DNA from: Pseudomonas anguilliseptica
Lineage (GTDB): Bacteria > Pseudomonadota > Gammaproteobacteria > Pseudomonadales > Pseudomonadaceae
Direction: 5' to 3'
Length of the DNA: 64,000 bases
Assembly (NCBI RefSeq): GCF_900105355.1
Contig: NZ_FNSC01000001.1
Location: 1,674,001-1,738,000, forward strand
In this document: one piece after another, positions 49,925 through 60,230 of the stretch
How the letters are laid out: every line of letters begins with the position of its first letter
How positions within the stretch are numbered: the first letter of the stretch is position 1
The notes under the pieces: generated by a model
Databases searched by the model: none
The model's input: only the letters and a program-made list of their open reading frames with translations
Told to the model about the DNA's origin: nothing
Program-made: the position numbers and the translations under genes

Positions 49925-50136
49925 GGTGCTGCTCCCTGGCGCGTCAGCCCGGTTGCAGCGTGACGCGCGGCTTTTACTTGTTATAAAGGTCCATCGTGTA
50001 GAAGCGCAGACCCTGTATTTAGCTTTAGCTGGGGTTGGCGCTGCGCGCCAGCGCGCGACACAGCCTGTCGTGCAATCCCGCCAGGCTGCGTGAGCTGATA
50101 ACCTTGCCCGCTACTGAACGGAAGCGACTCCCTCTG

Positions 50137-53100
50137 ATGCTGACGCTTTATCACGCCCCTGACCTGGAAACCCTTGGCGAGCTGGCCACCACCCTGCTCG
50201 CCACCCCCATGCATGACCCCTTCGCCCCGGCGCTGGTGGTGGTGCCGAGCCAGGGCATGGGGCGCTGGCTGACCCTGGAGCTGGCGCGCAAGCAGGGCAT
50301 TGCCATGCAGCTGGAGGTGCAGCTGCCGGCCAAGTTCGTCTGGGACCTCTCGCGCCTGTGCCTGGGGCAACTGCCGGAGCAGTCGGCGTTCAGCCCTACC
50401 AGCCTGAGCTGGCGCTTGTATGACTGGCTGTGCGAGCCGGCTCACCTGAGTGAGGCGCCGCGTCTGGCGCATTACCTGGACGGTGGCGATGAGCGGCGGC
50501 GTTTGTCACTTGCCGTGAAGATCGCCGACGTATTCGACCAATACCTGCTGTATCGCGACGACTGGCTGGCCGCCTGGGAGCGCAATGAGCAGCAGGACCT
50601 CGGCCCGGATGAAGCCTGGCAGGCGCTGCTGTGGCGCGAGCTGACCCGTGACGGCCACCCGCACCGCGCGCGTTTGCTGGAAGAACTGCTCACCCGCCTG
50701 TATGACGCCACACCTATCGCCGAACTGCCCGAGCGCATGCTGGTGTTCGGTATCAGCTCGCTGCCGCCACACCATATGCGCGTGCTCGAAGGCCTGGCGC
50801 GGCACACCCAGGTAATTGTTTTCGCCCTCAACCCATGCCGTGAAGCCTGGGGCGAGATTCGCGATATTCGAGAGCTGGCGCGGCAACCCGAAGCCAGCCC
50901 TGAAGACTGGTACCTGGATGTTGGCCACCCACTGCTGGCCAGCCTGGGCAAGCAGGGGCGCGACTTTTTCGACAGACTGTTCAGCCTGGCCTCCAGCGAG
51001 GGCAGTCAGGAAATCGGCTTGTATTCCGAAGACGCTGACCTGCACGATGCCAGCCTGTTGCAGGCATTGCAGAACGACATCCTGCGCCTGCGCACACGCA
51101 CTGCTGATGAGCGTTTGCGGCTGCGCGAAGACGACCGCTCGCTGGAGCTGCACGTCGCCCACTCGCCGCTGCGCGAAGTGGAAATCCTGCATGACCAGCT
51201 ACTCGCCCGCTTTGCCGCCGAGCCCAGTCTGACCCCGGATCAGGTGGTGGTGCTGACTCCGGACATTGAGCGTTACGCACCCTATATCGAAGCGGTGTTT
51301 GCCCCGCGCGAGGGCGTGCCGCGTATTCCCTTCAGCCTGGCCGATCGCAGCCTGCGCGCGGAAATCCCGCTGATCGAAGCCTTCCTTAACCTGTTGGCGC
51401 TGCCCGATAGCCGCTTTGCCGCCGAGGAAATCCTCGCCTGGCTGGAACAGCCGGCCATCGCCCGCCGCGTCGGCATCGAGGCGGAGGATTTACCGCTGCT
51501 GCGCGACTGGCTGCGCGAAGCCGGCGTGCGCTGGGGTCGCGATGAAACGCACCGCGAGCAACTGGGGCTGCCGGCCGACGCAGCCTTTACCTGGCGCCAA
51601 GGGCTGGATCGCCTGCTGCTGGGCTTTGCTGCGCCACCGCAGTTGGCCGGTCTGGCTGCGCCACTGTTGGGTACCAACTGGCCGCTGGATGCGCTGGAAG
51701 GAGGGAGGGCACAACTGCTCGGGCGCCTGGCTGGTTTTGTCGAGCGTTTGGCTACGCTGGCGCAAGGGCTGCAACGGCCGCGCGGCCTGGGTGAATGGGC
51801 CGAATCCCTGCAAGGGCTGATCGATCAGCTGTTTGATGAGCGCGAGGCCGGTGACACCCTGTTGCTGCTGTCCAAGGCCTGCGCCGCGCTCAAGGAGCAG
51901 GGCGAGGCCTCGGGTGTTGAACGGCCGATCGAGTTGGCGCTGATCCGTCAGCAACTGACCGCCGCCTTGGAACAGGGCAGCGCCGCCTCGGGCTTTCTCA
52001 CTGGCGCGGTGACCTTCTGCACCATGGTGCCGATGCGCAGCCTGCCGTTTCGCCTGGTCTGCCTGCTTGGCCTGGATGACGGTGCCTTGCCGCGCCGCAC
52101 CCCGGCAGCGGGCTTTGACCTGATCAGCCAGAAGCCCCGCTGTGGCGACCGTGCACGCCGGCTGGATGACCGTTACCTGCTGCTGGAAACCCTGCTCTCG
52201 GCCCGTGGCGGCCTGTACCTGAGCTACGTCGGCCGCGACCCGCGCAGCAATGCCGAGCTGCCGCCTTCGGTATTGGTCAGCGAGCTGCTGGATGTGGTCG
52301 ACCTCACCGCCGTTTGTGAAAGTGGTTGTGGGAGGGGCTTTAGCCGCGACGAGTCCGAGCTCGGCGGAAAAGCCAGCGCTCATATCACCCATCACCACCC
52401 GCTGCAGCCCTTCGCCCACGGCAACTTCGCCGGCAACCGCCATGCCGGCTTTGCCGCGCCCTGGTTCCACGCTGCGCAGCGCTTGAGTCAGGCGGTGCAA
52501 ACCCCAACGCCCTTTGCCAGTCCGTTGGATAAGCCGGATCAATATTTGCCGGGCGGCGTTCCGCTCAGCATCGAGCCGAGCCAGCTGATCCACTGCTTCA
52601 AACACCCGGCGCGCTACCTGCTGGAACAGCGTCTCGGCCTGCGCCTGGCGCAGAGCGAGGAAACTCTGGCCGGTGACGAGCCGTTCAGCGTCGAGTGGAC
52701 CAGCCAGCATGGCCTGCGCCAGTTGGCCTTGCAGGCCATCGAGAACGGTTGGAGTGAACGCCAGGAACGCGCCGTGGCGGCGGCGTCAGGCTGGTTACCG
52801 GTGGGCGAGTTGGGCCAGGCGCACTGGGGACAGATTCGCGGGCCGATCCGCGCCTTCGCCCCGACGCTGTTCGATGAACGTCCGGAGGATGCGCCGCAAC
52901 CATTGCTGGTGGACCTGGAGGTGGCCGGTGTACGCATCCATGGCTGGCTGGATGGAGTGACCCGCGCGGGCCTGTTCGACTACCGCCTGCGTGATCTCGG
53001 CGCCTGGGAGCTGGCACCGTTCTGGCTGCGCCATCTACTGCTTAACTGCGCTGCCACACCTGACATCAGCCGCGATAGCCGTCTGCTCTCGCCGAAAAGT

Positions 53101-53445
53101 GAATGGCGTCTGGGCGCGTTGGCCAATGCCCGTGAACTGCTGCTGCCCTGGCTCGAAGCCTACAAAAGCGTGCTGTGCGAGCCGCTGCCACTGTTCGCCA
53201 AATGCAGCCACGGCTTTGCCCGCAAATGGCGCAACCCCGGGCGCAAAGAGCCAATTGACGCCGCCCGCAGCGAAGCGCGGGTGATGTGGCAAGGCAATGA
53301 CTTTATGACCGGCGAAGGCCAGGACCCCTGGAATGCCCTGGCTTTTCGCGACCGTGAAGCGCTGGATGAGCGCTTTGAAACGCTGGCCGAGCAGCTTTAC
53401 GGCCCGGCGCTGGATGCCCTGCAAGGCAGCGGGGAGGATGAGTGA
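50137..53445 (+). CDS. recC: Exodeoxyribonuclease V subunit RecC, with in-frame REP-derived insertion
   Basis: RecC (1102 aa) is the Chi-recognising scaffold of RecBCD, a helicase-nuclease for double-strand break repair and foreign DNA degradation. The N-terminus has LVVVPSQGMGRWL and LQLPAKFVWDLSR-like segments. The middle has VVLTPDIERYAPYIEAVF and LFRLVCLLGLDDGALPR-like motifs, and the C-terminal nuclease-like fold follows. At about residues 727-748 the protein carries an unusual Gly/Cys-rich stretch (CESGCGRGFSRDESELGGKA) encoded by a REP-like sequence, in frame. The start at 50137 fits family N-termini; the ribosome binding site is weak. recB should follow directly but is separated by a Fic gene. 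Confidence 0.93.
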   Translation: MLTLYHAPDLETLGELATTLLATPMHDPFAPALVVVPSQGMGRWLTLELARKQGIAMQLEVQLPAKFVWDLSRLCLGQLPEQSAFSPTSLSWRLYDWLCEPAHLSEAPRLAHYLDGGDERRRLSLAVKIADVFDQYLLYRDDWLAAWERNEQQDLGPDEAWQALLWRELTRDGHPHRARLLEELLTRLYDATPIAELPERMLVFGISSLPPHHMRVLEGLARHTQVIVFALNPCREAWGEIRDIRELARQPEASPEDWYLDVGHPLLASLGKQGRDFFDRLFSLASSEGSQEIGLYSEDADLHDASLLQALQNDILRLRTRTADERLRLREDDRSLELHVAHSPLREVEILHDQLLARFAAEPSLTPDQVVVLTPDIERYAPYIEAVFAPREGVPRIPFSLADRSLRAEIPLIEAFLNLLALPDSRFAAEEILAWLEQPAIARRVGIEAEDLPLLRDWLREAGVRWGRDETHREQLGLPADAAFTWRQGLDRLLLGFAAPPQLAGLAAPLLGTNWPLDALEGGRAQLLGRLAGFVERLATLAQGLQRPRGLGEWAESLQGLIDQLFDEREAGDTLLLLSKACAALKEQGEASGVERPIELALIRQQLTAALEQGSAASGFLTGAVTFCTMVPMRSLPFRLVCLLGLDDGALPRRTPAAGFDLISQKPRCGDRARRLDDRYLLLETLLSARGGLYLSYVGRDPRSNAELPPSVLVSELLDVVDLTAVCESGCGRGFSRDESELGGKASAHITHHHPLQPFAHGNFAGNRHAGFAAPWFHAAQRLSQAVQTPTPFASPLDKPDQYLPGGVPLSIEPSQLIHCFKHPARYLLEQRLGLRLAQSEETLAGDEPFSVEWTSQHGLRQLALQAIENGWSERQERAVAAASGWLPVGELGQAHWGQIRGPIRAFAPTLFDERPEDAPQPLLVDLEVAGVRIHGWLDGVTRAGLFDYRLRDLGAWELAPFWLRHLLLNCAATPDISRDSRLLSPKSEWRLGALANARELLLPWLEAYKSVLCEPLPLFAKCSHGFARKWRNPGRKEPIDAARSEARVMWQGNDFMTGEGQDPWNALAFRDREALDERFETLAEQLYGPALDALQGSGEDE
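52327..52375 (+). repeat. REP-like element inside recC
   Basis: TGTGGGAGGGGCTTTAGCC and the next bases CGCGAC (52327-52351) resemble the Pseudomonas REP class TGTGGGAGNGGCTT-AGCCGCGA. An inverted part (CGGCGGAAAAGCC) follows at about 52363-52375. REPs are normally intergenic. Here the insertion keeps the recC frame and adds about 20 residues. Confidence 0.72.
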
Positions 53446-53511
53446 CGGATATTTCTTGCCATGTAGGTACATAAATACTCTGGCGGGATCTGTAGCGAGA
53501 CGTGCCACTAG

Positions 53512-53580
53512 CTATACAGATGCTTCTTGATATGTATAGAAAAATCGGATAACTATACATATTGTGCTTGGCCCGTATAG
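53512..53580 (+). promoter_or_regulatory. Operator array of four alternating CTATAC/GTATAG half-sites
   Basis: CTATAC (53512-53517), GTATAG (53534-53539), CTATAC (53553-53558) and GTATAG (53575-53580) alternate in orientation with start spacings of 22, 19 and 22. The middle pair extends to a perfect inverted repeat TATGTATAG / CTATACATA (53531-53539, 53553-53561). The array lies just before the fic start in AT-rich DNA and is a likely operator/promoter region. Confidence 0.6.
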
Positions 53581-53626
53581 CAAACGACAGTTTGCTCTAC
53601 ATATGACGGAAACTAGGAAGACTGAT

Positions 53627-54700
53627 ATGCAGGCGCTACAGAACCTCGCCCCAGAACGTTTTGAGACCCGCGCCATCCTGAGGAGGCTTAACGCGACTAG
53701 TCGGGTACTGGCCGAGCTCAAGGGGGTTGCATCGTCTATTCCGCACCAAGGCATCCTGATCAATACCTTGGGTATGCAGGAGGCCAAGGACAGCTCTGCC
53801 ATCGAAAATATCGTCACCACTTATGACGACTTGTTCCGAGATGATGCTTTCCCCGAGTCGGGTGACAACCTAGCGGCAAAAGAAGTACTGCGTTATCGGC
53901 AAGCGCTGCGTATCGGTTTTGCCAGTGTCTGCAAGACCGGCCTCCTGACTACCAACCAGATCATCGAGATCCAAGCCGAACTGGAGCGCAACAATGCCGG
54001 CTTGCGCTGCTTGCCGGGCACTACACTCAAGGATGGCCATGGCCGGGTCGTTTATACCCCGCCACAGTCGGCCTCCGAGGTGATCGAGTTGATGCGCGAT
54101 CTGGAACAGTTCATCAACGATGACGAGAGCTTCGATGCCGACCCTTTGGTGAAGATGGCGCTGATTCATCACCAGTTCGAGAGTATCCACCCGTTTTACG
54201 ACGGCAATGGCCGCGCCGGACGCATTGTAAATGTGCTTTACCTGCTCAAGTGTGGGCTGCTGGATATCCCAGTGCTCTACCTGAGCCGCTATATAGTGCG
54301 GCACAAGGCGGAGTACTACCGCTTGCTACAGGCGGTGCGGGAAGAGGACTGTTGGGAGGGCTGGGTGCTGTTTATGCTTGCAGCCATCGAGGAAACCGCG
54401 CGTCAGGCGATAGAAACTATTCAGGCCATCAAACAGGTGCTGATGGACTACAAGCACCGAATTCGAGACAAGCACAGGTTCTACAGCCAGGACCTGATCA
54501 ACAACCTGTTTACCCACCCCTACACCAAGATCGAGTTCATCGTGCGTGACCTCAAAGTATCTCGGTTGACTGCCACCAAGTACCTAGATGCGCTGGCTGC
54601 CAGCGGTTTTGTCGAGAAACGCAAGGTGGGCCGCTGCAACTTCTATATCAACCTGGGACTCAACGCGATCTTGACCGGGGAGAACTTGCGTGATGATTGA
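53627..54700 (+). CDS. Fic domain protein with C-terminal winged helix (class II, self-inhibited)
   Basis: This 357-aa protein is a putative AMP-transferase. The Fic motif HPFYDGNGRAGR has the catalytic His188. An N-terminal inhibitory motif SSAIEN (residues 56-61) fits the class II pattern S/TxxxE-G/N. The last 90 residues form a winged helix (FIVRDLKVSRLTATKYLDAL), a layout common in Fic/DOC proteins that bind their own operator. The start at 53627 follows AGGAAG; an ATG at 53603 lacks such a signal. It sits between recC and recB, where Pseudomonas normally has no gene. The operator array upstream suggests autoregulation. Target protein unknown. Confidence 0.9.
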   Translation: MQALQNLAPERFETRAILRRLNATSRVLAELKGVASSIPHQGILINTLGMQEAKDSSAIENIVTTYDDLFRDDAFPESGDNLAAKEVLRYRQALRIGFASVCKTGLLTTNQIIEIQAELERNNAGLRCLPGTTLKDGHGRVVYTPPQSASEVIELMRDLEQFINDDESFDADPLVKMALIHHQFESIHPFYDGNGRAGRIVNVLYLLKCGLLDIPVLYLSRYIVRHKAEYYRLLQAVREEDCWEGWVLFMLAAIEETARQAIETIQAIKQVLMDYKHRIRDKHRFYSQDLINNLFTHPYTKIEFIVRDLKVSRLTATKYLDALAASGFVEKRKVGRCNFYINLGLNAILTGENLRDD

Positions 54701-54742
54701 TACCAAGTCCTGCCTGGTGACTCCAGGGCAAAAGTTGGGCGC

Positions 54743-57700
54743 ATGAATCTCGATCTGCAAACCTCCTCCTTCACCGGCCGCTCGCTGATCGAGGCCAGCG
54801 CCGGCACCGGCAAGACCTGGACCCTGACCGCGCTGTACGCGCGCCTGTTGCTGGAGAAGCAACTCAACGTCAGCCAGATTCTGGTGGTGACTTTTACCAC
54901 CGCTGCCACCGCCGAGTTGCGCGAGCGTATCCGCAAACGCCTGGCCGAGTTGCTGGTGGTGTACGAACAGGGGCCAGGCGACGACGCCTTGCTCAATGCG
55001 CTGCACGCCCAGTACCCGGATGCCGCCAGCCACCGGCGTTTGCTGCTGGCAGTGCATGGCTTTGACGAAGCGGCGATTTTCACCATCCACGGCTTCTGTC
55101 AGCGCGCGTTGCAGGATGCCGCGTTTGAAGCGGGTGGCGACTTCGACAACGAGCTGACCTTTGATGACCGCGAAATTATCGACGCCCTGCTCGCCGACCT
55201 CTGGCGGCATGAACTGGCCAGCGCCGAGGCCGAATGGGCAGCGTTTCTGGTGCAGCAGAAAATCACTCCGCAGGTTCTGCGCCAGCGTTTGCGCAACCAC
55301 CTGGGCAAACCCTACCTGCGCATCGAACCGCAACCCGGTACGCGCAGTGAGATGAGCGCCCTGCGCGCCGCCTGGCAGCAGGCGCAGCGTCTCTGGCAGG
55401 GCGAAAGTACGGCCTGGCTGGAGCAGCTGAAAGCCTTCGACGGCTTCAAAAGCAATATGTGCACCGCGGCCAAACTCAGCGTCTGGCAGGCCGAGCTGGA
55501 CGGTTTTTTCAGCGACGCCGCCGCGCTGTTCAGCAAGACCGAAGCGCACTGCCGCCTGGCCCGCGAAGGCTTGAACAAGGCCAGCAAGAAGGGCTGCGAA
55601 GCGCCGGCCAATCCGCTGGCCGCCGCGCTGCAGGAACTCTGCGATGCCCTCGATGCTGCGCAACCCGAAGCCGAGCAACGCCTGATCGATCTTCAGGTAC
55701 GCCTGATCCATCAGCTCAACGAACAACTGCCCGCGCGCAAGGCGGCGCAACGCTTGCTGGCCTTCGATGACCTGCTCAACAAGCTGCAGCAAGCGCTGCA
55801 GGGCGATGGCGGCGAACACCTGGCCAGCACCTTGCGCACGCAGTATCCGGTGGCGCTGATCGACGAGTTTCAGGACACCGATCCGGTGCAGTACCGGGTG
55901 TTTCACCGTATTTATCAGGACGCCGGCGACCTGTGTTTTGTCGGTGACCCCAAGCAGGCCATCTACGCCTTCCGTGGCGCGGATCTGGCGACTTACCTCA
56001 AGGCGCGCAGCGAAGCCGCGAGGCAATACAGCCTAGCCATCAACCACCGCTCCACGCCTGAGCTGATCGCGGCGCTGAATCAGCTGTTCGACCGGCCCAT
56101 GCCCTTTGCCGAGAAGGGGCTGGCCTATCAGCAGGTCGGTGCCAGCAGCAAGGCGCGAGCAAAGTTGGTGTTGCCGAATGTTGAGGAGGAAACCGACGCG
56201 CCGCTGGCGTTGGTCTGGCTGGATAACGACTACCTGGGCAAGGGCGAAGCGGGGGTATTGGTGGCGCGCGACACCGCGCGGCGAATCGCGGCGGTGCTAA
56301 GCGCCAGCAGTCAGGGCCAAGCCTATTTTGAACAGAACGGTACTCGCATACCGCTCAAAGGTGGCGATATCGCCGTGCTGGTCGCCAGCCACCGCCAGGC
56401 TGGCGAAGTGGCTGCCGAGCTGGCCGCCCGTGGCGTGCCCAGCGTGCGCCGGGGTAAGGAAAACGTCTGGCACAGCGAAGAAGCGGATGAACTGTCCGCT
56501 GTGCTCGCGGCTTACGCCGAACCGGGCCGCGAGGGCGCATTGCGTTATGCCCTTGCCAGCCGTCTGCTGGGCCGTAGTGCCGCCGATCTGGCCGCCTGCA
56601 GTGAGGACGCTCAAGCCTGGGACCGCGAGCGCGAAGCCGCCGAACGCTACCACCAACTCTGGCAGCAACAAGGCTTTATGCGCGCCTTCCGCGCCTGGCT
56701 GGATGAGCAGCAGGTGGCCCAGCGCCTGCTGGCCCTGGTCGATGGCGAGCGCCGTCTGACTAACCTGCTGCACCTGGCCGAGTTGCTACAAACCGAAAGC
56801 CTGCAACGCCCGGGTCTGGAGCAATTGCTCGCCTGGTTCAACGCCCAACGCAGCGCCGAGGCCCATGGCGAAGACGCCCTGCTGCGTCTGGAAAGCGATG
56901 CCGAGCGGGTGCAGATCGTTACCATCCACACCTCCAAAGGCCTGGAATACCCGCTGGTATTCTGCCCCTACCTGTGGGACGGCGCGCTGCTGCGTCAGCA
57001 CGAGGACATCACTTGTCACTCCGACGACGGCACGCCGCTGCTGGACCTCGGTAGCGAGCAGCTCGACACGCACCGCGAGCGCGCCCGTCATGAGCGCTTC
57101 GCCGAGAAACTGCGCCTGACCTACGTCGCCCTGACCCGCGCCCGCGATCGCCTGTGGCTGCACTGGGGGCCGGTGGACTGCAAACCGAAAAAGGACGGCA
57201 CCCTTGGCGACAGCGGCCTGCACAGCAGCGCCTTGGCCTGGCTGCTGCACGGCCGCGCGTTGCCCGGTGAGGATGCTCTGGCCGAGCTCGCCGGCCATCT
57301 GCAAAGCCTTAGCCCGCAGGGTTTGCGTGCAGAAGTCGAACAGTTGATCGCTAGCAGCCAAGGCCAGATGGCCCTTCAACCGTTGCGTGAAAGCGAGGCC
57401 AACGCCGCCGGCGAACAACGCGCCCCGGCCCCGCAGCAACTCGCCACCTTGCAGCGCAGCCTGCACAGCGCCTGGCGCATCGGCAGCTTTTCGGGATTGG
57501 CGGCGGGTATGCACATGGAAGCCCCGGACCGCGACGGCCTGGTGCTGCCGGACGCCAGCGAGCCGGGCACGGGCTTTTTCGCCTTCCCCCGGGGTGCGCG
57601 GGCCGGTACTTGCCTGCACGCGATTCTGGAAGATTGGGCGCGGGGCAAGGCGTCGCTGGCTGAGCTGGTGGAGCCGGGGCTGAGCGGCCACGGCATTAGC

Positions 57701-58279
57701 AGCGACTGGAGCGCGGTGGCGCTGACGCAATTGCAGCAGGTGATCGACACCGATCTGGATGGCCAGGGTCTGACTCTCGCTGGTATTAATCCAAGCAGGC
57801 GTTTGCCCGAACTGGGCTTTACCTTCCCTCTGGCCGGGCTGGATGTGCAGCGTCTACGCGCGATTCTCTGCGACCCGGCCCATGGCCTGGCCGCACCGAT
57901 GCGCGAGGCGGCGGCGCGGCTGGAATTCGACAGCCTCAAGGGCTTTCTCAAGGGCTTTATCGACCTGACCTTCGAGCACGATGGGCGCTGGTACATCGCC
58001 GACTACAAATCCAACTGGCTCGGCCCGGACGCCAGCTACTACGGCGGCGAACGCCTGCTGCAAGCCCTGGCCGCCGAGCATTACTACCTGCAATACCTGA
58101 TCTACCTGGTGGCGCTGCGGCGCTTTCTGCGTCAGCGTCTGGACGATTTCCAGAATGAGCAACTGGGCGGCGCCTACTACCTGTTTCTGCGCGGCATGCC
58201 GAGTGCCGGGGTGTATTTCTCGCGACCCAGCGATGGCTTGCTCGATGCGCTGGATAACCTGTTTGCGGAGGGGCGCTGA
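54743..58279 (+). CDS. recB: Exodeoxyribonuclease V subunit RecB
   Basis: RecB (1178 aa) is the 3'-5' helicase and nuclease of RecBCD. Walker A is ASAGTGKT (residues 18-25). Helicase motifs II (LIDEFQDTDPVQYRVFHRIY region) and later TIHTSKGLEYPLVFCPYLW and TYVALTRARDRLWLHW are intact. The C-terminal nuclease has DLTFEHDGRWYIADYKSNW, with the Asp and DYK catalytic residues. No defect is seen. A poor ribosome binding site precedes the ATG, as expected if its translation was formerly coupled to recC. A Fic gene now lies upstream. Confidence 0.96.
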   Translation: MNLDLQTSSFTGRSLIEASAGTGKTWTLTALYARLLLEKQLNVSQILVVTFTTAATAELRERIRKRLAELLVVYEQGPGDDALLNALHAQYPDAASHRRLLLAVHGFDEAAIFTIHGFCQRALQDAAFEAGGDFDNELTFDDREIIDALLADLWRHELASAEAEWAAFLVQQKITPQVLRQRLRNHLGKPYLRIEPQPGTRSEMSALRAAWQQAQRLWQGESTAWLEQLKAFDGFKSNMCTAAKLSVWQAELDGFFSDAAALFSKTEAHCRLAREGLNKASKKGCEAPANPLAAALQELCDALDAAQPEAEQRLIDLQVRLIHQLNEQLPARKAAQRLLAFDDLLNKLQQALQGDGGEHLASTLRTQYPVALIDEFQDTDPVQYRVFHRIYQDAGDLCFVGDPKQAIYAFRGADLATYLKARSEAARQYSLAINHRSTPELIAALNQLFDRPMPFAEKGLAYQQVGASSKARAKLVLPNVEEETDAPLALVWLDNDYLGKGEAGVLVARDTARRIAAVLSASSQGQAYFEQNGTRIPLKGGDIAVLVASHRQAGEVAAELAARGVPSVRRGKENVWHSEEADELSAVLAAYAEPGREGALRYALASRLLGRSAADLAACSEDAQAWDREREAAERYHQLWQQQGFMRAFRAWLDEQQVAQRLLALVDGERRLTNLLHLAELLQTESLQRPGLEQLLAWFNAQRSAEAHGEDALLRLESDAERVQIVTIHTSKGLEYPLVFCPYLWDGALLRQHEDITCHSDDGTPLLDLGSEQLDTHRERARHERFAEKLRLTYVALTRARDRLWLHWGPVDCKPKKDGTLGDSGLHSSALAWLLHGRALPGEDALAELAGHLQSLSPQGLRAEVEQLIASSQGQMALQPLRESEANAAGEQRAPAPQQLATLQRSLHSAWRIGSFSGLAAGMHMEAPDRDGLVLPDASEPGTGFFAFPRGARAGTCLHAILEDWARGKASLAELVEPGLSGHGISSDWSAVALTQLQQVIDTDLDGQGLTLAGINPSRRLPELGFTFPLAGLDVQRLRAILCDPAHGLAAPMREAAARLEFDSLKGFLKGFIDLTFEHDGRWYIADYKSNWLGPDASYYGGERLLQALAAEHYYLQYLIYLVALRRFLRQRLDDFQNEQLGGAYYLFLRGMPSAGVYFSRPSDGLLDALDNLFAEGR

Positions 58280-58310: not shown

Positions 58311-58381
58311 CGTAGGGTGGATGACGCTGTTTTCATCCACCACGGCTAACGGTGGATGGATGAAGCGCCATCCACCCTACG
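58311..58381. repeat. Palindromic repeat between recB and recD
   Basis: CGTAGGGTGGATGACGC at the left pairs with GCGCCATCCACCCTACG at the right, with internal TCATCCACC / GGTGGATGGATGA pairing. The element is about 71 bp long and GTAGGGTGGA-type, related to the palindrome at 22825-22910. It separates recB and recD, which would otherwise be adjacent, and could affect recD expression. Confidence 0.8.
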
Positions 58382-58391
58382 GGAGTGGACT

Positions 58392-60230
58392 ATGACGCTT
58401 GCTGATCTGCCCCTTGGCCCACTGGAGCGCGCCTTGGTCGATAGCCTGCAGCGCCTTGATCCGCAGGCGTCGCCGGTGGTGCTGGCTTCTGCGGCGCTGC
58501 TGTGTGTGGCCTTGGACAAAGGGGATGTCTGCCTGCCGCTGGCGCGATTGGCCGGGCAGCGGCCCTGGCCGGAGCATGAACTGCGCTTGCCGGCGCTCAG
58601 CGACTGGCAGGCGCAGTTGCAGGCATCGCCGTTGGTTGGCGCTGAGGGCGCTTTCACACCGCTGATCCTTGAGCACAGTCGCCTCTATCTCGCGCGCTAC
58701 CAGGCCTACGAACGGCAGTTGGCCGAACAGCTGTTGCAGCGCGCCGCCGATTTACCCGAGGTGGATGAAGCCCAGCTCAGTGAAAGCCTGACTCGGCTAT
58801 TCGCGTTCAACTCTTTATCACCGGCGGGGCAGCAGCAACCCGACTGGCAGCGCCTGGCTGCCGCGCAAGCGGTGCGGCGCAAGCTGGCGGTGATTTCCGG
58901 CGGTCCCGGCACGGGTAAAACCACTACTGTGGTGCGTCTGCTGGCGGCATTGCTGGAGCAGCCCGGCTGCGAACATCTGGCTATCGGCCTGGCCGCGCCG
59001 ACGGGTAAAGCGGCGGCACGCATGGCCGAAGCGATCCGCAATGCCAAAGCTCAGCTGCCGGTCAGCGAGGCGATCAAAGCCGCGTTGCCGGATGAAGCGC
59101 GCACCCTGCATCGCCTGCTCGGCAGCCGCGGCGACAGCCCGCAGGTGCGCCATCACGCGGCCAACCTGCTGGCGCTGGACGTGCTGGTGGTGGACGAAGC
59201 GTCGATGGTCGATCTGGCCCTGATGGCCAAGCTGCTCGACGCCCTGCCGCCCACTGCGCGACTGATCCTGCTCGGCGACAAAGACCAGCTGTGCGCCGTG
59301 GAAGCCGGCGCGGTGTTCGCCGAACTCTGCGAAGGCCGTGGTTTTGATGCTCAGGCGGCGAATGAGCTGCAACGCTTAACCGGTCAGCAGGTGCCGGTCA
59401 GCCAGCCAAGCTCGCAACTCGGCGATGCGGTGGTGTTGCTGACCCACAGCCACCGCTTTGCCGGCGACAGCGGCATTGGCGAGCTGGCGCGGCGGATCAA
59501 TGGCGGCGATGTCAGCGGCACGCTGAACCTGCTCAAGGAAGACCGCCATGACCTGGCCTGGAATGCCCAGCCAACGCCCAATGATCTGCTTGAGCGTCTG
59601 GATCAAGGCTATGGACCCTATATCAGCGCTGCAAAAAGCGCCGACCCAGCGGCGGCCTTCGCTGCATTCAATACCTTCCGCGCGCTCTGCGCCCAGCGTG
59701 AAGGGGCCTGGGGCGTGGCCGGGATCAACGAAGCCCTGGAGGCGCGGATCAAGAGCCGCAGCCAGGTCTCCGCGCGTGAACGCTGGTATGTCGGCCGGCC
59801 GATCATGGTGCGGCAGAACGACTACGCCCTCGGCCTGTTCAATGGCGATATCGGTATCTGCCTGCACAGCGAATACGGCCTGCGGGTGTTGTTTGAAGGT
59901 GAGGATGGCTACCGCCCCTTCGCCCCGGCGCGCCTGCCCAGCCACGACAGCGCCTTCGCCATGACCGTTCATAAAAGCCAGGGCTCGGAATTCAGCGAAG
60001 TGCTGCTGGTGCTGCCCGAACTGCCCAGCCCATTGCTCAGCCGCAGCCTGTTCTACACCGGCATCACCCGCGCCAAACACAAGGTAGAAATCTGGGCCCT
60101 GCCTGCGCGCGTGGGTGAAGCCGTAGCCACCCGAGCCGAGCGGGCGGCGGGGTTGGCTGAGCGATTGGAGATACCAATGTCTGAAAATGCTGCATCTGTG
60201 ACAACGCAGGAACAGCTCGATCTTTTCTAG
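58392..60230 (+). CDS. recD: Exodeoxyribonuclease V subunit RecD
   Basis: RecD (612 aa) is the 5'-3' helicase of RecBCD. Walker A reads GGPGTGKTTTVVRLL at about residue 178. Walker B is LVVDEASMVDLALMAKLL, followed by LILLGDKDQL. Late motifs are FAMTVHKSQGSEF and SLFYTGITRAKHKVEIW. The start at 58392 follows GGGAG; a longer in-frame version is possible but unsupported. The gene follows recB after the palindromic repeat. Together with recC and recB it completes RecBCD, so break repair and Chi-dependent DNA degradation should be possible. Confidence 0.95.
   Translation: MTLADLPLGPLERALVDSLQRLDPQASPVVLASAALLCVALDKGDVCLPLARLAGQRPWPEHELRLPALSDWQAQLQASPLVGAEGAFTPLILEHSRLYLARYQAYERQLAEQLLQRAADLPEVDEAQLSESLTRLFAFNSLSPAGQQQPDWQRLAAAQAVRRKLAVISGGPGTGKTTTVVRLLAALLEQPGCEHLAIGLAAPTGKAAARMAEAIRNAKAQLPVSEAIKAALPDEARTLHRLLGSRGDSPQVRHHAANLLALDVLVVDEASMVDLALMAKLLDALPPTARLILLGDKDQLCAVEAGAVFAELCEGRGFDAQAANELQRLTGQQVPVSQPSSQLGDAVVLLTHSHRFAGDSGIGELARRINGGDVSGTLNLLKEDRHDLAWNAQPTPNDLLERLDQGYGPYISAAKSADPAAAFAAFNTFRALCAQREGAWGVAGINEALEARIKSRSQVSARERWYVGRPIMVRQNDYALGLFNGDIGICLHSEYGLRVLFEGEDGYRPFAPARLPSHDSAFAMTVHKSQGSEFSEVLLVLPELPSPLLSRSLFYTGITRAKHKVEIWALPARVGEAVATRAERAAGLAERLEIPMSENAASVTTQEQLDLF

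Follow-up and report, generated by a model that had tools for sequence, protein, structure and literature searches.

In a 64,000-nucleotide stretch of the Pseudomonas anguilliseptica genome (hereafter the window, numbered from its first letter), the open reading frame (ORF) list and Pfam matches place four genes in succession on the plus strand: recC and a fic gene, with stops at 53445 and 54700 respectively, followed by recB (ATG at 54743) and recD. As listed, recC runs from 50035 to 53445 and matches Exonuc_V_gamma and RecC_C, its true start probably being an ATG inside the listed ORF; recB occupies 54743–58279 (Pfam), with first codons unlike those of relatives that have no insert, and recD occupies 58356–60230 (Pfam RecD_N). 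The interval 53446–54742 is the gap between recC and recB, and is taken up by fic and its upstream region. RecC has a linker (52310–52440) that varies in length, the window's exceeding those of genomes G093 and G888 and G925's being longer still; it holds an odd stretch (CESGCGRGFSRDESELGG) whose origin, at a guess, is repeat-like.

The fic ORF as listed begins with a GTG at 53564 (378 aa) that falls within the array described below; we chose the ATG at 53627, preceded by AGGAAG, as the likely start, giving a protein of 357 aa encoded at 53627–54700 on the plus strand. The upstream region inserted with it (53446–53626, plus strand) has a G+C content of 0.41, against 0.65 for recB and 0.66 for recC. 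On the other side, a spacer of 42 nt (54701–54742) separates fic from recB. It holds no ORF of at least 20 aa, leaving no small antitoxin gene directly behind fic, and a search of it for a terminator or hairpin found neither, its predicted fold being no better than that of shuffled sequences. A single terminator-like site on the plus strand, at 54591, lies within fic itself.

The Fic protein has the domain order Fic_N, Fic, SoFic-like_C, all above the Pfam cut-offs, matches the PADLOC SoFic model (377 bits, E 2.7e-113), and aligns over residues 29–371 with solved SoFic chains in the PDB such as 3eqx and 3zcn. Its score against the NCBIfam model ProtAdlyltaseSoFic (NF046030) is 351.5 bits, below the curated cut-off of 550, and the protein is accordingly a relative and not an equivalog. 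Further SoFic entries in the PDB (9tb0, 9tc4 and others) indicate that this group of proteins is under study by others. Fic enzymes are defined by the active-site motif HxFx[D/E]GN[G/K]RxxR and, in class II, by an N-terminal inhibitory motif [S/T]xxxE[G/N]. The window protein has both, as HPFYDGNGRAGR (54188–54223, plus strand) and SSAIEN (53792–53809, plus strand). SSAIEN recurs in the close relatives G925, G818 and G888; the active-site motif is identical in G925 and G888 and reads HPFYDGNGRTGR in G818. Across 35 aligned sequences (the window protein and 34 of 120 listed homologues), no substitution occurs at E or N of the inhibitory motif or at the active-site residues H, F, D, G, N, G, R and R. 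Relatives at 78–93 percent identity (P0001–P0024) come mostly from metagenomes. The AlphaFold model (mean pLDDT 84.7) ends in a C-terminal winged helix with a two-stranded wing at residues 329–342, and this model, together with the operator comparison below, places the likely recognition helix at residues 313–325 (54563–54601, plus strand). Pfam domains, inhibitory motif and structural model thus agree with the initial annotation, which had described a class II Fic protein with a winged helix inserted in the recCBD operon. A phage origin of the gene was considered and rejected, as the 20 phage records that match it all do so at less than 60 percent identity; five viral contigs match at 51–57 percent.

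Upstream of fic, CTATAC and GTATAG hexamers alternate at 53512, 53534, 53553 and 53575. Hexamer search and matrix scan together delimit four half-sites: CTATACAGAT at 53512–53521 (plus strand), a minus-strand site at 53530–53539 (plus-strand letters ATATGTATAG), CTATACATAT at 53553–53562 (plus) and a second minus-strand site at 53571–53580 (plus-strand letters GCCCGTATAG). Four such sites had been claimed from the first inspection of this DNA; to these we add a degenerate fifth, CTCTAC (CTCTACATAT, 53595–53604, plus strand), which stands in register with a matrix score of 14.6 at −32. The spacings are 22, 19, 22 and 20, giving a repeat unit of 41 bp, or about four helical turns, with inner spacers of 16 bp. 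CTATAC alone is not rare in the window (10 occurrences against 6.2 expected), and four half-sites within 69 bp, alternating at 22/19/22, are far from chance. That a fic insert with such an array lies between recC and recB is confirmed.

We searched the genome for other places where the same protein might act. Allowing at most two mismatches recovered nothing beyond the array's own two palindromes, and allowing up to three gave 37 matches per strand against 106 for a reversed control pattern; with no further near-perfect copy and fewer loose matches than the control, we rejected the idea of a regulon. A scan for a sigma-70-like promoter over the array found none, so that repression, as opposed to activation, is something we infer.

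The array accompanies related genes elsewhere. We took the best 80 matches listed from a contig search, all at other loci and 64–75 percent identical to the window protein (more exist), and scored their upstream regions with a matrix built from these same 80 loci, made independent of each by leave-one-out only. In the 22/19 register, 69 of the 80 show a minimum of two half-sites and 54 a minimum of three, with up to six in a row. Around the upstream CTATAC, positions that had not been selected for are conserved as well, mostly TTT before and AyRT after (121 hexamers, 61 loci). Chains of two or more correctly spaced half-sites occurred in none of 2000 first-order Markov shuffles of upstream regions from 100 loci, a control that took in L001–L020 as well and in which 220 shuffles derive from opposite-strand stretches of 11 of the 19 genus loci L002–L020. 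Among 2827 other windows of the same loci, likewise with L001–L020 included, there was one, and comparison of exact words indicates that its three-half-site chain is probably the array DNA of locus L033. The strict scan left 11 of the 80 homologues without a chain; in two of these, L033 and L110, half-sites are positioned elsewhere, and their chains were perhaps missed through a misplaced start. By record title, carriers of the array, many of them metagenome bins, include members of the Pseudomonadota, Verrucomicrobiota, Gemmatimonadota, Spirochaetota, Thermodesulfobacteriota, Acidobacteriota and Bacteroidota.

The CTATAC version of the array is not universal among SoFic relatives. A scan of the correct strand found no such chain in any of the 19 genus loci L002–L020 (42–60 percent identity), nor in three Pseudomonadaceae relatives at 55–61 percent (L268, L270 and L271). 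A fourth, L269, has two half-sites; four each are present in L111, L112 and L266, relatives of the Azotobacter type. We applied a motif-free measure to a wider SoFic set of 112 upstream regions (19 from the genus, 30 at class level, 3 relatives and 60 fetched by coordinates), scoring, at every lag, 11-mers that recur with 10 or more of their 11 letters unchanged; the class-level loci, picked from the high-scoring end of a ranked list that has some gaps, are not a random sample. Repeats peaked at lags of 30–31, 40–41, 70–72 and 80–81, close to 3, 4, 7 and 8 helical turns, other lags drawing 0–5 regions each. At least one peak lag was present in 49 of the 112 upstream regions against 2 of 112 in-gene controls. 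Shifting the lags by 5 reduced the count to 3 or 4 regions, and shifting them by 10 gave 28 because the shifted lags land on neighbouring peaks; 63 of the 112 regions had no repeat at this strictness. Further SoFic relatives (L144, L138, L147, L150 and others) carry TTTCTTTAATT-like half-site repeats at lags such as 30, 41 and 71. As judged from these comparisons, a phased upstream array is a trait of the SoFic family.

The identity of the half-site follows that of the predicted recognition helix. We tabulated 195 proteins, dropped nine that were too short, and called an array wherever at least three sites were present. Of the remaining 186, 87 have an SRLTATKYL-like helix (group A) and 26 have KRQTASxYLK (group B), leaving 73 that comprise 66 unassigned proteins and a small group C of seven. 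Arrays of CTATACAyRT stand upstream of 74 of the 87 group A genes and CGACAyRT arrays upstream of 5; since group A includes the loci that yielded the CTATAC motif, the former count is not fully independent. In group B the preference is reversed, with CGACAyRT arrays in 24 of 26 and CTATACAyRT arrays in 5, the first figure again not fully independent, as the pattern was read by eye from some of the group's own members. In-gene background was 0 and 2 of 186 for the CTATACAyRT and CGACAyRT arrays, respectively. Site spacing differs as well, at 18 and 23–24 in group A and 15 and 25 in group B by the same measure. Within this table, the half-site sequence changes along with the recognition helix.

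Because the array accompanies fic and its winged helix at other loci, and does not accompany recBCD, it belongs to fic, as the initial annotation had supposed, and very probably serves the Fic protein itself as its operator. How such an operator would be used is suggested by CccR of Yersinia pseudotuberculosis, a Fic protein with a C-terminal HTH that represses itself through a footprinted palindrome in its promoter; deletion of cccR raised the activity of its own promoter 3.3-fold (PMC9755527). By analogy with CccR, whose promoter carries inverted repeats much as the window's Fic and winged helix go with an upstream array, autorepression is the most likely use. The layouts differ: the CccR site is a lone palindrome whose two 10-bp boxes are separated by 26 bp, whereas the arrays described here have 3–6 half-sites at a period of 41. 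In the window, a single palindrome with a 26-bp spacer is not what we find, there being four clear half-sites and one degenerate; a further difference is that CccR is a secreted effector. A second comparison is CbFic2 of Coxiella burnetii, a class II Fic protein with a winged helix that binds DNA; it differs in having no known specific site and in targeting host histones (PMC10628234). According to the same paper, DNA binding by SoFic itself had not been demonstrated as of 2023 (PMC10628234).

At the level of the protein, a close parallel is SoFic (Shewanella SO_4266 and Sofic of E. coli H397), which shares the domain order of the window Fic. Sofic is an anti-phage toxin that requires dimers for toxicity and whose C-terminal domain is moved when ATP is bound (PMC12249575). 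In the Sofic-AS1 pair, a 47-aa AS1-like antitoxin gene lies downstream, for which the window's 42-nt gap is too small. The SoFic proteins and their part in defence are already known, as is a Fic-HTH protein that represses itself. Searches of the open-access literature found no multi-site operator of the SoFic family and no report of genes inserted between recC and recB, and word searches within two SoFic papers did not turn up any operator described for fic.

We surveyed recC–recB junctions in 120 genomes with the window's type of RecB (122 loci, two genomes having two), drawn from 149 genus and 388 family genomes. The two genes are normally adjacent, as had been assumed, overlapping or nearly touching in relatives and no more than 40 nt apart in 91 of the 120. 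Gaps of 81–297 nt were seen in 15, the three inspected containing only short, partly repeat-like DNA; two genomes have 0.6 kb of repeat-like DNA, and in three there is no recC within reach. The inserts whose existence the initial annotation had left to such a survey are present: fic in three genomes, other genes or a remnant in six. The latter are a 477-aa TPR-like protein with no Pfam match in G093 (L273), an arginase and a LysR-like ORF in G027 (L274), a 198-aa nucleotidyltransferase with HTH plus a 146-aa partner in G028 (L277) that match the PADLOC candidate PDC-M05A/B, a protein of about 700 aa in G796 (L379) and G781 (L380), with SLFN_AlbA_2 and HATPase_c_4 domains by Pfam in L379, and in G990 (L334) a remnant resembling the HATPase_c_4 end of the 700-aa gene; the name of the remnant, and those given to the G093 and G027 genes where Pfam had no match, are our own reading. 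PADLOC's Argonaute-associated label for the SLFN_AlbA_2 protein is a weak match that we did not accept at face value. The genus has two types of RecBCD: the window's RecB is matched at E 1e-200 in 20 of 149 genus genomes, and most of 24 other genus genomes searched have a RecB at about 37–40 percent identity. Among 26 relatives with RecB at about 36–40 percent identity, 25 have no insert and one could not be resolved.

The three carriers of recC-fic-recB are the window genome, G925 of the same genus and G888 of another (its Fic, P0015, bears the source label Pseudomonas tohonis); three species and two genera are thereby represented, and in G925 and G888 the complete run through recD is seen. 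The window and G925 share a Fic amino-acid identity of 0.944; for the parts of the two flanking proteins that were compared the value is 0.665 (RecB, first 478 residues) and 0.656 (RecC, last 450), and at full length RecB and RecC are 72–74 percent identical. Four-fold-site identity is 0.67 for fic, 0.71 for recB and 0.63 for recC. From such similar synonymous divergence beside so well kept a protein, fic and recBC have probably been together for long in these two genomes, and Fic, by the same comparison, is strongly constrained. When the two upstream regions are aligned, all five half-site positions correspond, and half-site columns are identical in 43 of 50 cases against 42 of 61 for the others (one-sided p = 0.03), which lends the array modest support; sites 4 and 5 are weak in G925, where no more than two half-sites join into a chain under the strict scan. 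G888 differs at both junctions, with a recB-start-like stretch on the left and fic overlapping recB on the right, and has three half-sites, at spacings of 22 and 20. Whether recC–recB was entered once or twice, the tree, with seven rows for the one-clade question and no firm root, does not separate.

These data bear on whether fic at this site has anything to do with RecBCD, or is a mobile defence gene in a tolerated spot. Homologues occur in many contexts and also on plasmids; an arginase, a TPR-like protein and repeat-like DNA have settled at the same junction; and the four-fold identity of fic between G888 and the window is 0.43, below the 0.67 of recB and the 0.61 of recC, which may fit a separate arrival. 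Against a mere passenger stand the position that the window and G925 share across much synonymous divergence, with strong constraint on Fic, and the precision of the site: across 398 Pseudomonadaceae genomes, eight have a Fic at E 1e-100 or better; in four of these it is at least 80 percent identical, and three of the four have it exactly at recC–recB, the fourth (G818) carrying it in a type I restriction locus. We regard an untied passenger as a real contender that falls somewhat short of probable.

Beyond this junction, RecB, RecC and RecD were absent beside 109 other fic loci (E 1e-8, within flanks of 1.5–6 kb, some cut by contig ends). The proposed link to RecBCD, for which occurrence of the same Fic at many unrelated loci had been named as part of the adverse outcome, fares unevenly: the same kind of Fic does occur at these 109 loci, and the recC–recB position nonetheless recurs. 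Among the best 80 homologues, 62 have a same-strand ORF of at least 100 aa close downstream and 18 have none, some because the contig ends. The downstream gene encodes HsdR in 18 of the 62 (Pfam HSDR_N; 17 by PADLOC), a type III methyltransferase in 6–7 and a further Fic protein in four, and it overlaps fic by 4 nt (offset −3) in 14. On the Azotobacter plasmids L111 and L112 the order is hsdM-fic-hsdS-fic-hsdR, one with a nuclease gene before hsdR, so that two different Fic genes lie within one type I restriction locus. The fic gene between hsdM and hsdS on these plasmids and in G818 is 85 percent identical to the window's, which lies between recC and recB, and resembles it in its array, which has four half-sites, mostly CTATGCA, in a register of the same kind. 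By these gene orders the fic cassette often stands immediately upstream of the gene for HsdR or RecB, each a helicase-nuclease subunit.

Controller proteins of type II restriction systems time the expression of their neighbours, and the winged helix and array could likewise serve chiefly to time a downstream DNA-destroying subunit (RecB or HsdR), with AMPylation secondary. The HsdR and methyltransferase genes behind fic, the 4-nt overlaps, and the overlap of fic with recB in G888 are in keeping with this, but most homologues do not precede a nuclease gene, and the intact motifs in the window and three relatives, with their key residues invariant in 35 sequences, argue for a working enzyme; we consider a mainly regulatory role possible, on the doubtful side. 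Guards of RecBCD occur among retrons, and Fic had also been proposed to sense phage inhibition of RecBCD and then AMPylate an essential target (abortive infection). That is unlikely. SoFic has been reported as an anti-phage protein (PMC12249575) and PADLOC assigns the window protein to it, the position recurs in three species, and defence-like genes at the junction (PDC-M05A/B in G028, SLFN_AlbA_2 in G796 and G781) add a weak and circumstantial hint, but relatives live at loci with no recBCD nearby, as G818 does in its type I restriction locus, and no contact or trigger is known.

The reading we favour, and think likely, is that the insert is a SoFic-type cassette complete in itself, bringing along its own array and a class II Fic adenylyltransferase whose winged helix represses fic and whose occupancy of the array also sets recBD expression. 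What leads to it, from family and motifs to the array, its travelling with the gene, the covariation with the helix, the recurrence at recC–recB and the constraint on Fic, comes from sequence comparison. The C-terminal winged helix would bind the alternating upstream half-sites, which fall on one face of the DNA, and cooperative binding by one Fic dimer, or by several in a row, would repress transcription from the fic promoter, keeping a toxic enzyme scarce until DNA binding is relieved. Since the cassette lies inside recCBD and no terminator was found right behind it, we infer that transcripts of recB and recD start in part at the fic promoter and in part come through the array while it is occupied. 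Occupancy by Fic would then set recBD expression and, given that homologues precede hsdR, may likewise govern how strongly the nuclease subunit that follows is expressed in the type I restriction operons of relatives; from the layout and the parallel position before hsdR, a coupling of fic to recBD expression is plausible. The dimer requirement of Sofic and the ATP-linked movement of its C-terminal domain further suggest possible cross-talk, in which the catalytic state and DNA binding of Fic would be coupled through movement of that domain.

A broader generalization, that SoFic-type Fic proteins form a large class of enzyme-repressors with their own phased arrays, that in operons for DNA-destroying machines (recC-recB, hsdS-hsdR) the AMPylator, through its amount or activity state, sets the synthesis of the helicase-nuclease subunit, and that recC–recB is a preferred site for defence modules in the Pseudomonadaceae, we hold to be rather unlikely as a whole and put forward tentatively. 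With regard to the trigger and control of the SoFic anti-phage proteins, the array provides a concrete candidate operator for dozens of members of the family, with a relation between helix and half-site that can be tested in vitro. The recC-fic-recB and fic-hsdR arrangements are natural layouts in which an AMPylating toxin and a subunit that destroys phage DNA probably share a transcript.
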